Virus record (IMG/VR): IMGVR_UViG_3300025889_000083
Coordinates: 40,149-104,148 of that record
Source of the DNA: a virus
Direction: 5' to 3' (one strand)
DNA length: 64,000 nt
Under the pieces are notes generated by a model. That model searched no databases. It saw only the letters and a program-made list of their open reading frames with translations, and was not told where the DNA came from. The position numbers and the translations under genes were made by a program. Positions 8,986 to 49,593 of the stretch are shown one piece after another. How positions within the stretch are numbered: position 1 is the first letter of the stretch; each line of letters begins with the position of its first letter.

Positions 8986-9530
8986 AAATTTGCTGTATCT
9001 CCTAAAGTTGGATGGTTTCCTAGATTTTGTGTTGTACCACTTGAATCTACATAAGTATTACCCATAAATCCAAAAGCATTTGGTATTTTTAAAACGACAA
9101 AAGCACCCGCTGCACTTGTTCGTGAAGTATTGCCTGGAGAATATGATACATTCATACGGAGTGGAGTTACACTTGTATTTGAAATTTTATAAGTATCATA
9201 CTCTCTAATAAGATCTTCTGTAAAACTGTCAAAGCTTGGATTACTTACTATATTTTCATTATGTAAAATTGCTGTATTTGCCTCATTTACTAAAACCTCT
9301 GGAATATAAGTTAATGTTGCCTTACTTCCAGATGTCCAAGTTATAGCGGATGAAGTTGCTGTAAAATTTGCACCTGCATATATCAATCCTGTTCGTACTG
9401 TTGTAGAATCAAAAATTAGATTATTTGCAGTTGTTGTCTCAACATTTGCTGAAGGTTTTGATACCCATAGCCCAAAATTACTTGTGCCTCTTGTTGCTGT
9501 TCCTTTACCAAATAAAACTCTACTAGGCAT
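8979..9530 (-). CDS. RVL-family virion protein, middle paralogue
   Basis: A 183-residue protein beginning SRVLFGKGTATRGTSNFGLW, then VSKPSANVET. It follows the J-like gene directly, with a one-base overlap. The shared start across three genes indicates tandem duplication with divergent distal domains. It is likely a structural tail-tip or fibre adaptor. Confidence 0.65.
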   Translation of the reverse strand: MPSRVLFGKGTATRGTSNFGLWVSKPSANVETTTANNLIFDSTTVRTGLIYAGANFTATSSAITWTSGSKATLTYIPEVLVNEANTAILHNENIVSNPSFDSFTEDLIREYDTYKISNTSVTPLRMNVSYSPGNTSRTSAAGAFVVLKIPNAFGFMGNTYVDSSGTTQNLGNHPTLGDTANLW

Positions 9531-12500
9531 TATGTTCCATCCGATATAATTATTTGTTGATTTACGGAACTAAAAACAATATTTGCACTTGATAATGACG
9601 TTGAATTTAGTGTCCACCCACCAGCAGATCCGCCTGCTACTGTTAATGTTAAACTGTCTGTTGATGATATTTTAGCATTTGTAATCGCATTTGCTGCAAT
9701 CTGTAAACTATCTATACTTCCTGCAATTATTTCAGAAGTACCAATCTGGTTAGCTGCTATCTTTGCTGCTGTAATTGCATTAGCGGCAATTTGTAATGTT
9801 CCAATAGATCCACTAGATATTTCTGCTGTACCAACTTGATTAGCTGCTATTAAAGCCGAAGTAATAGCATTTCCAGCTATAAGTGCAGTTGTAATACTTC
9901 CACTAACTATTTCTGCAGTACCAATTTGATTAGCTGCTATTAAAGCCGAAGTAATACTGTTTGCTGCAATTTCACTTGTACCTACTTGATCTGCGGCTAT
10001 CTTTGCTGATGTAATTGAGTTTGCCTGAATCATTGCGCTTGTAATAGATACAGAAGTTATTTTTGCAAACTCAATTCCTGAAGCATTGATACTTGCATTT
10101 GTAACAGCTCCACTTTCTATCTTTGCATTTGTAATTGCATTTGCTGCAATCTCATTTGTATCTACAGCACCAGAAGATATCTTCGCATTTGTAATTGCAT
10201 TTGATGAAATCTGGTTAGTACCAACTGCATCACTCTGAATACTTACAGAAGTAATACTGTTTGCAGAAATATGAGAATTATCAATAGCATTTGTTACAAT
10301 CGCTGCGGCTGTTATTGAGTTTGCTGTTATATGGGAACTATCAATGGTGCCAGCTTGAATAATTGCAGCATTTACAGAGTTAATTGATAATTCATTATTT
10401 GTAATTGAGTTTGCTGCTATAATAGCTGCTGTTACAGAGTTTGCTGTTAGTTCATTATTTGTAATTGTATTTGCTGCTATCTGTGCGGAGCCAACTGAGT
10501 TTGCAGCTAATTCTGAACTGGTAATTGATCCTGCAATAATCTGTGCTGCTCCAATAGCATTTGCTGCCATCTTAGCATTTGTAACAGCTCCAGTGGCAAT
10601 TTGTATAGCTCCCACAGCTCCAGTTGCAATACTTACTGAGTCTATACTATTTGCAGCTATTGTTTCATTTGTAACTGAGTTACTTGCTAGTAGTGTTGAA
10701 GTGATCGCATTTGCTATAATTTGTGCTGTATTAATAGCATTAGTTGCGACTTTTCCACTTGTTACAGCATTTGCTGCTATTTTAGCTGCTGTAATTGCAC
10801 TTCCTGCTAATTGGTTTGTATCAACAGCACCATTGGCAATAATAATACCAGTTACAGATCCAGTGGCTAATTGAGTTGTTCCAACTCCACCACTAGCAAT
10901 AATTGTTCCAGATACAGAGCCAATGGTAAGTTCTGCACTTCCAATAGAGTTTGCAGCTATCTCAACTGAAGTAATTGAGTTTGCTGCCATTAGGGCATTT
11001 GTAATAGTACCAGAAGCAATTTCTACTGCGGTAATTTCATTTGCTCCCACAGTGAATGAATTTATAGCATCTGCAGTTAACTGAGCTGATGTAATACTAT
11101 TTGCTTGAATAGCAGCAGTTCCAATAGCATTTGCTGCTATTTTTGCTTCTGTAACTGAGCCCGCTGCAATTGAAGCAGTAGTAATAGAATTAGAAGCTAT
11201 TTTTGCATTTGTAATCGCATTTGCGGATACATGCACAGTATCAATAGATCCACTTATAATTTGGGCACTATCAATAGAGTTTGCGGCTATTTCTGATGTA
11301 CCAATAGCATTTGCAATAATCATTGTGCTATCTATTGAGTTTGCAGCAATATGAGAACTATCAATAGAATCAGCAATAATTGCTACTGATCCAATACTAT
11401 TTGCGGCAACTTCTGATGCTCCAATAGAGTTTGCTTGAATATGAATTGCTTGTATTGAGTTTGAAGCTAATTCTACACTTGTAATTGAGTTTGCTGATAC
11501 TGTAAACGCAGCTACAGCACTTGAAGTTAACATAAGAGAAGTAATACTATTTGCTTGAATAGCAGTACCTCCAACAGCGTTTTCTGCTATTGTTGTTTCA
11601 GTTACAGCACCATCACCAATTTCTCCAGTATTTATTTTGAATTTAGAAGTAAATTGCTGTAGTGAATATGTACCTGATGTATTTGCTACTACTGCTAAAA
11701 TTGCGTCTTTTGTTCTATCTATTTTGTAATTTTGGAAGAAAACATTTGCTCCGCTATACGCTCTTAATGCACCATCTGAAATCTGTATGCTAGTATTACT
11801 ATAGACATAAGTTACTTTTGCATATTGTCGAGTAGTACCTGCATCGCCTAAAACAATTAGGTCACCAGTTTGATAATCACTTAAGAAAGTAGTACTACTT
11901 CCTTCTAATATTGTCTCTCCTGCATCTACAGAGAATGTACCATTTGCTTGTCCAAAGTCTGTATTTGCATCATTAATTGTTCTTTTTGTAAAAATAGGAT
12001 AAAGTTTATTTCCTTGTGCATCTTCTGATGTAGTATCTGTTCTATATTCAATAGCTTGTAATGGGTCTGCTGTGTTGCTATAGTCATATAATAAATATGC
12101 TACGCTGTTTGCAGACATTGCACTAAAGTCTTGCTGTGTTTGTGCAGTATTTCCGCTTGATACAGTTATAAAAGTTCCAGCGTCTACTTGTGGAGGTAAG
12201 TAATTATATGAAGTATTTGAAAAACTTACTACTCCATTAGCAGCTATTGTTAATGTTGTATCTAAAAATCCACCTAATGGAATGTCTTTACCTGGTTGAC
12301 TTGATAATATATGGGCTCCGACGGCATCATCAACACCAATACGTCTGCTTCTCCATCGAGAAAAGTTTTCTCTAATATTTACTGTTCTTACTCTTACTCG
12401 ATATGTACCTGGCATTACATTTTCCCAAGTATATGAAGTATCTTCAGGGTCTACACTAAATCTTTCCCATTTTGCATTTCCATCGTATCTACCTTTACCA

Positions 12501-44517: not shown

Positions 44518-44546
44518 AGTATACCATAGGTCGATCTAAAAGTCAA
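44518..44546 (-). promoter_or_regulatory. Promoter of the terS/Isc/curli operon
   Basis: On the minus strand, TTGACT (44546-44541), 17-base spacer, TATACT (44523-44518). The start codon of the terS-like gene begins six bases after the -10 box, predicting a leaderless transcript. Confidence 0.78.
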
Positions 44547-44621
44547 GAAATTTTTTCGTATGCATCGTCACGATGCTATCTTCTGCGTCTTTTTATAAGT
44601 ACCAAAAATACCAAAAGTTGT

Positions 44622-44662
44622 ACGTGTGGGGGAGCGGAGCTCCGCGCTGACAACGTTGTCAG
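44622..44662. promoter_or_regulatory. GC-rich palindromic site with TGACAACGTTGTCA operator
   Basis: Contains a perfect 12-base palindrome GCGGAGCTCCGC followed by the perfect 14-base palindrome TGACAACGTTGTCA (44648-44661). The latter occurs two more times (45910, 48083). It is probably an operator for a dimeric regulator. Confidence 0.6.
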
Positions 44663-45778: not shown

Positions 45779-45812
45779 GAATTTTTTTACTTTTTTTGCC
45801 TTGCTGTTTTGA

Positions 45813-45888
45813 TTGACTCACCCTAAAATTCATAAATGAATTTTAGGGTGTGTTTCGCTTTTTGTCAATAGATTTTTTAAAAAAAATT
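45813..45888 (+). repeat. Direct repeat copy A containing a 15-bp-arm palindrome
   Basis: About 75 bases nearly identical to 48134-48208. It includes the inverted repeat with arms 45819-45833 and 45836-45850 (CACCCTAAAATTCAT and its complement, 2-base loop), then TGTTTCGCTTTTTGTCAATA. Together with copy B it flanks a 2.3-kb segment. Confidence 0.8.
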
Positions 45889-45908
45889 ACTATATATTTA
45901 TACAGCAA

Positions 45909-45924
45909 ATGACAACGTTGTCAT
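45909..45924. promoter_or_regulatory. Palindromic operator-like site, copy 2
   Basis: The perfect palindrome ATGACAACGTTGTCAT, between two CCCTAAAATT palindromes and between the divergent gene runs. The same 16 bases occur at 48082-48097. Confidence 0.65.
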
Positions 45925-45939
45925 GGCTAAAAGAAACAT

Positions 45940-45967
45940 ACCCTAAAATTATAAATAATTTTAGGGT
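45940..45967. repeat. Perfect inverted repeat of the CCCTAAAATT family
   Basis: Arms of 13 bases (ACCCTAAAATTAT and its complement) around a 2-base loop. Same core as the palindromes at 45819 and 48140. Confidence 0.75.
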
Positions 45968-45999
45968 GGCTCTGATTTGGTGGGTTGCTTTAAATGGGG

Positions 46000-46060
46000 C
46001 GGTCTAAAATTTGTCCGCTTCGCTTTATCAAACTTTGTTTGATAAACAAATTTTAGACCG
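46000..46060. repeat. Compound inverted repeat of the GGTCTAAAATTTG family
   Basis: Outer arms of 14 bases (CGGTCTAAAATTTG at 46000-46013, complement at 46047-46060) enclose an inner perfect hairpin with 10-base arms (TTTATCAAAC at 46024-46033, complement at 46037-46046). The outer arms recur at 47592-47647 with a different inner hairpin. Confidence 0.8.
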
Positions 46061-46211
46061 AGATTCAGAAAATGTCAAGATTTGTGACAACTTTTTTACT
46101 GCTCATTTTTTGACCACTTGGCGAAAATTTATACAGGGCTATTTTTTCAAATACACTTGCTCTCTTTATACTTTTCGATATACTAGAAGGATATTCATAA
46201 GAGAGGAAAAA

Positions 46212-46358
46212 ATGGAAAAAGAAAAGAAACAAGAAGAAACTAAGGCAACACTAGCCAAGATGATCGCTAAGAAAAAAGGTTTATCAACTTCCGAGCAAAC
46301 ATCACTAGAAAGAACTTCTAAAGATATGCTTGTTAAAATCTTGGCATGGGTTTCCTAG
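46212..46358 (+). CDS. Small charged protein
   Basis: 48 residues from ATG 46212, chosen because of the AGAGG ribosome site; the frame also extends upstream through the palindrome, which is unlikely to be coding. It is Lys/Glu-rich (KKQEETKATLAKMIAKKKG). First gene of a short rightward operon. Confidence 0.5.
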   Translation: MEKEKKQEETKATLAKMIAKKKGLSTSEQTSLERTSKDMLVKILAWVS

Positions 46359-46576
46359 ATCTTCTTTATTGGTTTGGGGCTATCTGTTTAATGATTGCCC
46401 CAATAACCAAAAACACCACCACTCCGATAATGGCGGTTATTGGTTTATCCTTGCTAACACTTCAAGCAATAGAAAATCAATTAATCAATTTAATAATCTT
46501 AAATGTATCCTCAATTATTGCATGGGGCTACAACTATAAAAGGATAACTAATGAAAACAAAAATCGAATTAACTAA
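46346..46576 (+). CDS. Small two-pass membrane protein
   Basis: 76 residues with two hydrophobic segments (LLYWFGAICLMIAPI and MAVIGLSLLTLQAI) plus a third at INLIILNVSSIIAW. It overlaps the genes on both sides. The function is unknown. Confidence 0.55.
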   Translation: MGFLDLLYWFGAICLMIAPITKNTTTPIMAVIGLSLLTLQAIENQLINLIILNVSSIIAWGYNYKRITNENKNRIN

Positions 46577-47033
46577 ACAAATAGGCAAGGCAAAAATACC
46601 GCTTAAACTTTTTAAATATAGCTATCTATATTTGCTTTCCCTAGAATTGCTAAATGATGAAGGCACACCATACCAGCAATATTTTAAATTTGGAAAAACA
46701 CAAGATCCCGAAAAGCGATTTAAACAATTCCAAAAAGACTATATGAATTTTAAGATAGGTTATTTTTGGCTCTCTTACGATATGCCAAATTGTTGGCGGT
46801 GGTTAGATATGGAAACTCAAATTATAGAGAGCAAAATTAAAAAAACACTTGATAGCAATTTTGAGAAATGGGACAAAGAAAAAGGCAGAATTTATGGGTG
46901 GACAGAAATATATAAACTCAATAATACGCTAGAATTAAAAGGCATTAAGACTTTTGTAACCACAGAAATAAAAATGCTCATGGGACAAAATAACATCAGC
47001 AACTTAGAGGATTTAAAATTATGCACAAAATAA
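46551..47033 (+). CDS. GIY-YIG-like (T5orf172-type) protein
   Basis: A 160-residue protein. YLYLLSLE, then FKFGKTQDPEKRFKQFQKDY, and later DMETQIIESKIKK and GWTEIYKL follow the order of a GIY-YIG nuclease core as found in T5orf172-type domains: a Tyr pair, K/R after the second strand, and a metal-binding Glu. Such proteins are often mobile-element nucleases. Several core positions are degenerate, so activity is uncertain. Confidence 0.5.
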   Translation: MKTKIELTKQIGKAKIPLKLFKYSYLYLLSLELLNDEGTPYQQYFKFGKTQDPEKRFKQFQKDYMNFKIGYFWLSYDMPNCWRWLDMETQIIESKIKKTLDSNFEKWDKEKGRIYGWTEIYKLNNTLELKGIKTFVTTEIKMLMGQNNISNLEDLKLCTK

Positions 47034-47200
47034 ATATTAATAATCAAGAATATATTATGAGAGTCATTGTAGATGACAAAGGAAATGTAGATCATAAAGC
47101 ACAGCTAGAGGTAGAAGAAAAATGGAAAGGAATGACAATAGAGAAGCCAACACTTACGCTAATAACGAACAAGCAATATATAAAATCGTTAAAAGACTAA
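47021..47200 (+). CDS. Small protein of unknown function
   Basis: 59 residues (MHKININNQEYIMRVIVDDK, GNVDHKAQLEVEEKWKGM). It overlaps the GIY-YIG-like gene by 13 bases and ends one base before the next ATG. It competes with a longer frame (47122-47364); this one looks better because of its charge pattern. Confidence 0.5.
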   Translation: MHKININNQEYIMRVIVDDKGNVDHKAQLEVEEKWKGMTIEKPTLTLITNKQYIKSLKD

Positions 47201-47364
47201 ATGAAAAAAGAAAAAATGAACTTTATAGATTGCTTATCAGATATCGCAGACTTAATGGAGAACATAGAACAAGACATGGAAAAAGCTCTCCGCTATTTAC
47301 TGCAAAAATTAGGGTTATCCGAAAAGAACTAGAAGGAAAATTTTTTATTACTGATTTAGATTGA
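47122..47364 (+). CDS. Possible small basic protein overlapping neighbours
   Basis: 80 residues, basic and helical (KIVKRLNEKRKNELYRLLIR). It overlaps two shorter frames (47021-47200 and 47201-47332), so at least one of these is spurious. A GAGG lies 9 bases or so before ATG 47122. Confidence 0.35.
   Translation: MERNDNREANTYANNEQAIYKIVKRLNEKRKNELYRLLIRYRRLNGEHRTRHGKSSPLFTAKIRVIRKELEGKFFITDLD
47201..47332 (+). CDS. Possible small acidic helical protein
   Basis: 43 residues (MNFIDCLSDIADLMENIEQD then KALRYLLQKLGLSEKN) starting directly after the previous stop. It is in the same frame as 47021-47200. Alternative to 47122-47364 in the overlapping region. Confidence 0.4.
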   Translation: MKKEKMNFIDCLSDIADLMENIEQDMEKALRYLLQKLGLSEKN

Positions 47365-47368
47365 TTAC

Positions 47369-47418
47369 AGGGCAAAGCTATCTTTCATTAATTCCTTCTC
47401 ATATCTTAGCTTTGCCCT
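47369..47418 (+). terminator. Long hairpin after the rightward small operon
   Basis: 12-base perfect arms (AGGGCAAAGCTA at 47369-47380, complement at 47407-47418) with a 26-base loop. There is no clear T-run, so it may be a transcript-end stabiliser rather than a classic terminator. A second hairpin with 10-base arms (TTGGGCTCTG 47427-47436, complement 47499-47508) follows. Confidence 0.5.
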
Positions 47419-47510
47419 ATTCCGATTTGGGCTCTGTTGATCTCATTTAATTTTTATTAAATAAGGACGGAAACTCTCTTTGTTAATTTCTACGAGAGCA
47501 GAGCCCAAAG

Positions 47511-47550
47511 TTATCCACAAAAAAACGACTTACTAACAAGGTTATCCACA
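47511..47550 (+). other. DnaA boxes, pair 1
   Basis: Two perfect TTATCCACA sequences at 47511-47519 and 47542-47550, same orientation. They match the bacterial DnaA-box consensus and lie in an AT-rich, gene-free stretch. Confidence 0.7.
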
Positions 47551-47591
47551 GGCAAATTTTTTTGTCACAAAACTTGACTTTTTTCGAAACG

Positions 47592-47647
47592 CGGTCTAAA
47601 ATTTGCTTATTGCAAAGCAATAACCGAAGGTCGCAAATTTTAGACCG
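47592..47647. repeat. Compound inverted repeat of the GGTCTAAAATTTG family, copy 2
   Basis: Arms of 15 bases (47592-47606 and 47633-47647) enclosing an inner hairpin with 7-base arms (TTATTGC 47607-47613, complement 47617-47623). The outer arms match those at 46000-46060. Confidence 0.8.
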
Positions 47648-47694
47648 AGCCCAAATTAACCAAAAAAATAATTTAAAAATATTTAAAAAAACGC

Positions 47695-47726
47695 TTGACG
47701 GCAGGGTTAAAATTTGAGAATATATA
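47695..47726 (+). promoter_or_regulatory. Possible promoter of the structured RNA
   Basis: TTGACG (47695-47700) with the AT-rich GAATATATAC about 17-20 bases downstream. The -35 box is good, the -10 box is poor. Confidence 0.4.
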
Positions 47727-47729
47727 CAT

Positions 47730-48076
47730 ATCAGGACAGGGCAGAAAGCAACGGACTGAAAAGGAAAGCAGACGCCTTCCACCCAATGAGCAAAGACTCT
47801 TAGAGAAACTCAAAGGCTAGGAAACGCGGAGAAGCTACCGAGTAAATACCGACTTTCTACCCCTACTGATACGGAGATTATATCACAGATATAATTATGA
47901 TAAAAATCAAATAACAAAAGTGATTTTGATCTAGGGGAAAGAATTGTTAATCCTCAACCCTAAATCGAAACGCTAGAAAGAAACGGAAACATTAACGGAA
48001 ACTTAATCTAGCAAACTCCTCTCCTTAAAGAGAGAAAAAAGGCAGAACAAGAAATTGAACTGCCTTTTTTTTTTTT
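47730..48076 (+). ncRNA. Candidate structured RNA of about 340 nt
   Basis: No convincing ORF. Paired segments: CCCCTA with TAGGGG, enclosing ATTATAT/ATATAAT (loop CACAG) and AAAATCA/TGATTTT; GCTAGA with TCTAGC; CTCTC/GAGAG; then a rho-independent terminator. The 3' half forms a clear series of helices. I do not recognise the class; it is not an obvious tmRNA, RNase P or 6S RNA. Confidence 0.55.
48036..48076 (+). terminator. Rho-independent terminator
   Basis: GGCAG (48041-48045), loop, CTGCC (48060-48064) and a run of 12 T. It ends the structured RNA candidate. Confidence 0.8.
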
Positions 48077-48081
48077 GATAA

Positions 48082-48097
48082 ATGACAACGTTGTCAT
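48082..48097. promoter_or_regulatory. Palindromic operator-like site, copy 3
   Basis: Perfect ATGACAACGTTGTCAT, just after the terminator and 40 bases before repeat copy B. Confidence 0.65.
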
Positions 48098-48133
48098 TTT
48101 TAATCCTAAAAAAATCCGCTTTGGCTTTTTAAC

Positions 48134-48208
48134 TTGACTCACCCTAAAATTCATAAATGAATTTTAGGGTGTGTTTCGGTTTTTGTCAATACCTTTTTAA
48201 AAAATATT
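48134..48208 (+). repeat. Direct repeat copy B with 15-bp-arm palindrome
   Basis: Nearly identical to 45813-45888. The inverted repeat arms are 48140-48154 and 48157-48171. It marks the right end of the 2.3-kb segment with the GIY-YIG-like gene. Confidence 0.8.
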
Positions 48209-48252
48209 TTTAAATGCGAATGAGAATCATTCTCATTTGGAAAAATCAACTT

Positions 48253-48445
48253 TTGTCCACAGGGGCGCGCCTTCGGCGCCAAAGTGCAAAAGTGAAGTGC
48301 CAAAGTGATGGCGCTTGCGCCAAAGTGCGAAAGTGAAGTGCGAAAGTGAAGTCTTTCTGTGAGCTGGCGCGCGTGCCTGGCGGGGTCGCATAGTCTTTTT
48401 TTTTTATTGGCACTTATCCACAGGTTATCCACAGACTTATCCACA
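48253..48445 (+). other. Candidate replication origin: iterons and DnaA boxes
   Basis: Three perfect DnaA boxes TTATCCACA at 48414, 48425 and 48437 (11-12-base spacing, same orientation) and a variant TTGTCCACA at 48253. Between them, 48281-48352 holds about eight AAGTG units in tandem (AAAGTGCG, AAAAGTGA and similar), broken by GGCGCTTGCGCC. This combination resembles iteron origins of plasmids and some phages. GC-rich repeats stand out against the AT-rich surroundings. Confidence 0.65.
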
Positions 48446-48770: not shown

Positions 48771-49212
48771 GAGATATTTTAAATTTTTTTAACTTTTTTC
48801 AGCCCGCCACCAGCTTGACTTTGCGAGGCGACAATTTTGCCCGAATTCAGCGAAGAATGGGGAAATATAGCGAGAACCGCATAGCGGCGGGGTTTTTCGC
48901 GGGGTTGGGCTGGCAGGTGAAAAGCAAGCACAGCCTGCGTTAGCGTGATAGTAAGCACTTACTATTCGCACACGCTCTGCACCGAAGAAAGTGCAAATTC
49001 GAAGTGCAAAAGTGATGCGCGCGCGAGCGCGCTAGTGCAAAAACGATTTAAGTAGTCTTTCTAGCAAACCTCATTATATCACGGCTTTTGCGGGGTTGTC
49101 AAGAAATTTTTTGCGTTTTTTGGAGATTTGCGAAGCACCCGCTCAGGTTTCGTACGCCCGCCCCCGAAATAAAAGTGCGTTCCACCTCCAATTAAAAAAG
49201 TTAAAGTAATTG
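48771..49212. other. Gene-free stretch with palindromes and further AAGTG repeats
   Basis: No supported gene. It contains the inverted repeat ATAGTAAG-CA-CTTACTAT (48948-48965), GC-rich GCGCGCGAGCGCGC, and several more AAGTGC/AAAGTG units at 48988-49042 like those in the candidate origin. Short frames here lack ribosome sites. Confidence 0.5.
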
Positions 49213-49412: not shown

Positions 49413-49593
49413 ACATCTGAGAACGATTGCGATTAACGAAGCCGCTCACGATTATATAGAGCGTATGGAAGTTTATTACTCCCATAATGCAGGTGGAATA
49501 GAGGCAGGCGTGCAAGCACTTGTAAATGAGTGCAACCTTGACGAAAACGAGGCACGCCGACTTGCCGAACTCTTTGAAAAAAATTCAAAGTAG
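49405..49593 (+). CDS. Small helical protein
   Basis: 62 residues from GTG 49405, overlapping the previous gene by 8 bases. Helical, with AINEAAHDYIERMEVYY and NEARRLAELFEK. Possible small DNA-binding or regulator protein; no family recognised. Confidence 0.5.
   Translation: MRRHLRTIAINEAAHDYIERMEVYYSHNAGGIEAGVQALVNECNLDENEARRLAELFEKNSK

Follow-up and report, generated by a model that had tools for sequence, protein, structure and literature searches.

In phage T5, the first-step DNA is the first to enter the host, after which transfer stops temporarily at an injection stop signal; entry of the remaining DNA requires the products of A1 and A2. How T5 interrupts DNA entry and later resumes it is, to our knowledge, still little understood. 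The left terminal repeat of T5 carries A2, the gene for a two-TM protein, A1, 003, 002, and dmp, and ends with the annotated iss (9140-10149 of AY543070). The order of dmp, A1, and A2 is also given in PMC3326045, and the injection stop signal has been described as a set of repeats, inverted repeats, palindromes, and DnaA boxes (PMC13250531). The annotated iss contains repeats of AAATGAGAATCATT and iterons of TGTGCAAATCCGAC, together with a GC palindrome and a DnaA box that lies in GTTATCCACAGACTTATC.

Here we consider a segment at 45813-48208 of a 64-kb stretch of viral DNA (the window), which is part of a 104-kb record. In our view, it probably constitutes the block of pre-early (first-step-transfer) genes of an uncultivated T5-like phage, equipped with palindromic promoters and an iss-like flank. 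A sequence-only reading had proposed that the segment could be a mobile cassette, a satellite-like insertion, or an amplified control region.

A terminase-to-regulator interval shared with T5-like phages

Judged by its sequence, the window belongs to an uncultivated T5-like phage. The terminase small subunit gene to the left of the segment matches phrog_3802 (1.9e-40) and 903 phage records, with T5-like phages foremost. Its product shares about 42% identity with the terminase small subunits of T5-like Escherichia, Salmonella, and Vibrio phages, and identity rises to as much as 83% with those of uncultivated phages. A D5-like regulator gene lies on the right side of the segment. When the interval between these two genes was extracted from relatives holding both, it proved to be kept at the same place and to contain a short operon. 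In most cases this operon runs rightward and begins with one or two small proteins, followed by a nuclease-like slot, whose occupant is a 290-aa exonuclease-like protein in some relatives and, in others, a GIY-YIG-like protein of 130 aa (family c45; MUG113 8.2e-5, T5orf172 1.3e-4). After this slot come small genes, then a gene for a membrane protein and one for a HAD-type phosphatase. The phosphatase, which is dmp in T5-like phages, matches phrog_415 and 895 annotated records, and its family is present in 31 related regions.

The locus in the window is homologous to and syntenic with these intervals. Its operon also runs rightward (46212-47364) and encodes a 48-aa protein, a membrane protein, a GIY-YIG protein, and proteins of 59 and 80 aa (Table 1). 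Neither dmp nor the exonuclease-like gene was found anywhere in the 104-kb record, as is also the case in relative L048, and nothing in the window operon matched T5 A1 or A2 in sequence. Therefore, the homology of the window genes to those of T5 rests on the relatives and on gene order. Searched against annotated phages, the window DNA gave matches only to DnaA-box strings.

Several other observations concern this interval. The 290-aa exonuclease-like protein that occupies the A1 slot of relatives (family c5; e.g., 1873-2769 of the L016 interval) appears DEDD-like by eye and had no match among annotated phages. A block of DNA upstream of the terminase gene (44540-44640) is conserved in relatives and is a candidate packaging site. 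Two results count against a terminal repeat here. The record is linear and has no end repeats. In relatives, 19 of 62 contig ends fall within 850 bp of where the terminase begins, but the ends scatter and form no sharp site.

Table 1. Features of the segment and its right flank, in window coordinates
Feature	Position	Strand	Basis or remark
Left 75-base repeat	45813-45888	-	A/T tract and TTGACA-N17-TAAAAT promoter reading left; palindrome 45819-45850 over -10/+1
Third palindrome, arm motif ACCCTAAAATT..AATTTTAGGGT	45940-45967		Motif count and palindrome scan
Inner-left hairpin (46000-46060) with TTGACA-N17-TAAAAT promoter reading left	46000-46078	-	
48-aa protein, position of T5 A2	46212-46358	+	Aligns, at pattern level only, with family c8, the small gene that comes first in the operons of relatives
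76-aa membrane-type protein (family c24), position of T5.005	46346-46576	+	BLASTP grouping with L055, L065, L071, and L073 proteins; T5 order
160-aa GIY-YIG-like (T5orf172 type) protein, slot of T5 A1	46551-47033	+	Profile, alignment, and predicted structure
59-aa operon ORF	47021-47200	+	ORF list; no clear family match
80-aa operon ORF	47122-47364	+	ORF list; no clear family match
Two DnaA boxes (47511, 47542)	47511-47550	+	
Inner-right hairpin (47592-47647) with TTGACT-N17-TAAAAT promoter reading right	47574-47647	+	
Structured non-coding RNA	47726-48076	+	Promoter-like sequence upstream (~47695-47723), terminator; core GAGATTATATCA at 47874-47885
Palindrome TGACAACGTTGTCA	48083-48096		Other copies at 44648 and 45910
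Right 75-base repeat	48134-48208	-	Promoter-palindrome as in the left repeat, reading left toward the RNA terminator
Fur-box-like palindrome AATGAGAATCATTCTCATT	48213-48240		Kind also in T5-like injection stop regions
GC palindrome and AAGTGCAAAAGTGA-type iterons	48265-48350	+	
Three DnaA boxes within 32 bp	48414-48445	+	

Paired promoters within palindromes

The near-identical repeats reported earlier, each with a perfect palindrome of 15-bp arms, are borne out. The copies measure 76 and 75 bases at a spacing of 2,321 bases, and the 76-nt unit is 93% identical to its partner (E 1.5e-27 in a search of the 104-kb record). Taken more broadly (45803-45888 and 48124-48209), the pair is 88% identical over 86 nt. 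Both copies contain CACCCTAAAATTCATAAATGAATTTTAGGGTG (45819-45850 and 48140-48171; arms 15, loop 2). The further palindromes noted before are also present, namely an inverted second hairpin pair and three copies of TGACAACGTTGTCA, together with a third related palindrome that had been missed. The arm motif occurs three times in the window versus zero expected, and the whole 104-kb record has five palindromes whose arms reach 13 bp or more, every one of them within 45819-48171. The exact window palindrome had no match in other IMG/VR viral contigs. The three exact copies of TGACAACGTTGTCA in the window have no counterpart in the relatives' loci, and this element is a candidate for a phage-specific operator.

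What the sequence-only reading did not recognize is that each repeat is also a promoter. On the minus strand, every 75-base unit presents an A/T tract, TTGACA, 17 nt, and TAAAAT, with the -10 box at palindrome offset 5, and thus has the sequence of a sigma-70 promoter whose -10 box is inside the palindrome. The whole record contains three instances of TTGACA-N17-TAAAATT, each in one of the palindromes, and the fourth hairpin has TTGACT as its -35 box. The AT-rich palindromes of relatives have other sequences, yet their geometry is kept, with a -35 box of TTGACA, TTGACT, or, in a few, TTGCAA. The left one reads left in every case. In all 13 phages having such palindromes, every palindrome carries a 17-nt-spaced promoter, and the -10 offset is near-constant across copies. 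In the short-loop copies, the dyad is close to the start site. Arm identity is 0.87 within a phage versus 0.62 between phages, which none of 20,000 shuffles reached in a permutation that ignores phage relatedness. Nine of the closer relatives lack AT-rich palindromes and have the locus all the same, and so these palindromes are inessential to it.

A mobile or satellite-like cassette, inserted by way of its direct repeats, would suit a compact operon with a nuclease-like gene between near-identical repeats, and homing endonucleases are found among GIY-YIG proteins. However, the synteny of the operon in relatives contradicts this explanation, and the repeats are promoters whose sequences vary among phages and match within them. 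Furthermore, no recombinase or transposase was recognized among the ORFs, the palindrome is not found in other IMG/VR contigs, and no relative with an empty site and a single repeat copy was found; the three relatives with one palindrome still have the operon. The segment is kept at the same place in relatives, in a T5 pre-early-like order and with repeats that differ between phages and look functional, which is in essence the outcome that the sequence-only reading had given as refuting its proposal. We therefore consider a cassette or satellite-like insertion highly improbable. The control-region alternative fares better, given repeats that look like functional promoters and a gene order corresponding to that of the T5 pre-early genes.

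Perhaps the palindromes instead act as DNA structures, with cruciforms or hairpins halting DNA entry or RNA polymerase as part of the injection stop, rather than as regulator-bound promoters. Their arms are perfect and AT-rich, their loops range from 0 to 31 nt and thus poorly match a fixed dimer operator, and they adjoin iss-like elements. The T5 iss is itself described as palindrome-rich (PMC13250531). However, an exact 17-nt spacing and a near-constant -10 offset in every copy would be superfluous for a structural stop, and the left copy is at the far end of the block. We judge this possibility unlikely, although it deserves serious weight. Bidirectional terminators are a very unlikely third reading. 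A terminator-like scan does list the palindromes, and the right copy is located between convergent units, but no clear U-run follows the palindromes, the left copy separates divergent genes, and the conserved flank consists of promoter boxes.

A structured RNA with a conserved core

The proposal that the segment encloses a structured RNA also stands. The folding z of this RNA is -5.3, with its own terminator included. In relatives, the operon is followed by a promoter, a purine-rich RNA of 180-430 nt, and a terminator. An 11-nt core, GAGAUUAUAUC, is common to the window RNA and the relatives, in which it is located inside a covarying hairpin. The stems of this hairpin differ yet pair (96% of cells), and 8 of 15 pairs have changed on both sides, with 20 such cells versus 6.5 in shuffles. 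The window RNA has the core at the same place, with diverged sequence around it. An RNA model made from nine relatives recovers only the sequences it was built from, has no T5 match, and identifies only the core in the window (E 0.02 in 6.5 kb). Thus, the window RNA is assigned to this group by its place, by its promoter-like sequence and terminator, and by the core. The core is overlapped by an antisense extended -10 (TGATATAAT), which may be an alternative reason for the conservation of the core. An Rfam search gave no family at the gathering score, and the structured RNA is previously undescribed. It represents a new phage RNA that can be tested.

The protein in the A1 slot

The 160-aa protein scores below threshold against Pfam (T5orf172 16.3 bits, threshold 20; MUG113 15.8 bits, threshold 22.3), and we found no clear PHROGs match and no near relatives in viral contigs. 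Aligned with the c45 family, it has the landmarks KFGKT, R, E, and GWTEIY in common, although a profile comparison with that family was not significant. PDB sequence searches returned nothing or chance matches. An earlier structure prediction from two sequences reached a pLDDT of 35. The present model (pLDDT 71.5, pTM 0.67) has a two-strand hairpin, a helix, a strand, and a helix, together with the catalytic landmarks. Among viral proteins, it best matches a T5orf172 protein (1.4e-5). Among solved structures, two GIY-YIG proteins score best, HIGLE and Slx1, with modest Z values of 5.8 and 4.7; Foldseek against the PDB gave no match at 0.001. A GIY-YIG fold, as suspected from the sequence, is likely on the strength of this model, and nuclease activity may be expected with it. 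The interchangeable occupants of the nuclease slot suggest selection on a DNA-cutting function and not on a given protein.

The right flank resembles an injection stop region

Repeats, palindromes, and DnaA boxes are clustered past the putative pre-early genes of the window. The DnaA boxes had been placed between the repeats, which is true of two of the five exact boxes, whereas those at 48414, 48425, and 48437 are just outside. Beside the right repeat is a palindrome that we take to be Fur-box-like from the Fur consensus. T5 uses FhuA, which is Fur-controlled, as its receptor. In 32 relatives, the Fur-type pattern TGANAATNATTNTCA occurs 21 times inside the interval (156 kb) versus zero times outside (336 kb), and DnaA boxes occur 37 times inside versus six times outside. 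The T5 iss and the right flank of the window share AATGAGAATCATT elements, a GC palindrome, iterons, and DnaA boxes with GTTATCCACAGACTTATC. The flank also holds GGTTATCCACAGACTTATCCACAGG.

Fur-box-like palindromes are also seen in the T5 iss at about 9560-9720 (L109) and in relatives' intervals (L009-L088). Farther right, a AGTAAGCACTTACT palindrome (48948-48972), also present in L012, L014, L027, L028, L029, L032, and L036, looks like a further regulator site. Three near-identical strong promoters (TTGACA-N17-TATAAT) are at 49575, 50049, and 50210. The last two precede stretches without clear genes, and more small RNAs are possibly made there.

The DnaA boxes, iterons, and AT-rich tracts could alternatively form a replication origin, with short promoters priming DNA synthesis. 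Such elements do cluster here, and cumulative GC skew has its turning point near 46 kb. However, the skew tracks gene direction, and the same elements are in the annotated T5 iss. An origin is therefore a doubtful explanation, though not a negligible one.

A proposed pre-early control locus

From homology with T5, we infer pre-early timing, a terminal repeat, and an injection-stop role for this locus. The rightward operon would fill the pre-early role, with the GIY-YIG protein in place of T5 A1. The 75-base repeats would be copies of one strong sigma-70 promoter with the -10 box and start site in the palindrome. The left copy would fire the divergent leftward gene set, and the right copy would produce a short leftward transcript that meets the bidirectional terminator of the RNA. 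Because the two copies are alike within each phage, it is simplest to suppose that both are acted on by a single regulator or by the same DNA structure, probably so as to shut off pre-early transcription. The injection stop signal would consist of the Fur-like palindrome, iterons, and DnaA boxes at the right.

It is far more speculative, and in our estimation improbable, that a large uncultivated T5-like group runs its injection pause and pre-early shut-off through paired palindromic promoters and a structured RNA dedicated to this task, while the host proteins Fur and DnaA bind the stop region as sensors or brakes. A wide set of natural variants keeps the Fur-like palindromes, iterons, and DnaA boxes while swapping genes and promoters, which points to the kept elements as the likeliest to be essential.

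Comparison with known systems

GOLLD, ROOL, and OLE are large structured RNAs of phages or bacteria. The window RNA resembles them in being long and structured with its own terminator, and some of them are also in phages. It differs from them in having no Rfam match and in its conserved core, which in relatives lies in a covarying hairpin. The 160-aa protein is like the T5orf172 and MUG113 GIY-YIG nucleases in predicted fold and landmarks, and unlike them in its sub-threshold Pfam scores and in having no clear PHROGs match.

With respect to T5 itself, the window block is about 2.3 kb versus a 10-kb repeat, its operon is oriented opposite to the terminase gene, unlike in T5, and it lacks the dmp family that T5 and most relatives have. 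The A1 slot holds a GIY-YIG protein in the window, an exonuclease-like or GIY-YIG-like protein in relatives, and A1 in T5. The main DnaA cluster is right of the iterons in the window and left of the palindromes in T5. Promoters with a -10 box inside a palindrome occur in the window, and none was seen in T5; these promoters and the structured RNA are new parts of a known kind of locus. As with the first-step-transfer DNA of T5 and its pre-early operon (A2, T5.005, A1, 003, 002, and dmp), the block is positioned by the terminase end, and its genes follow the same order of a small gene, a membrane gene, a nuclease slot, and two small genes.
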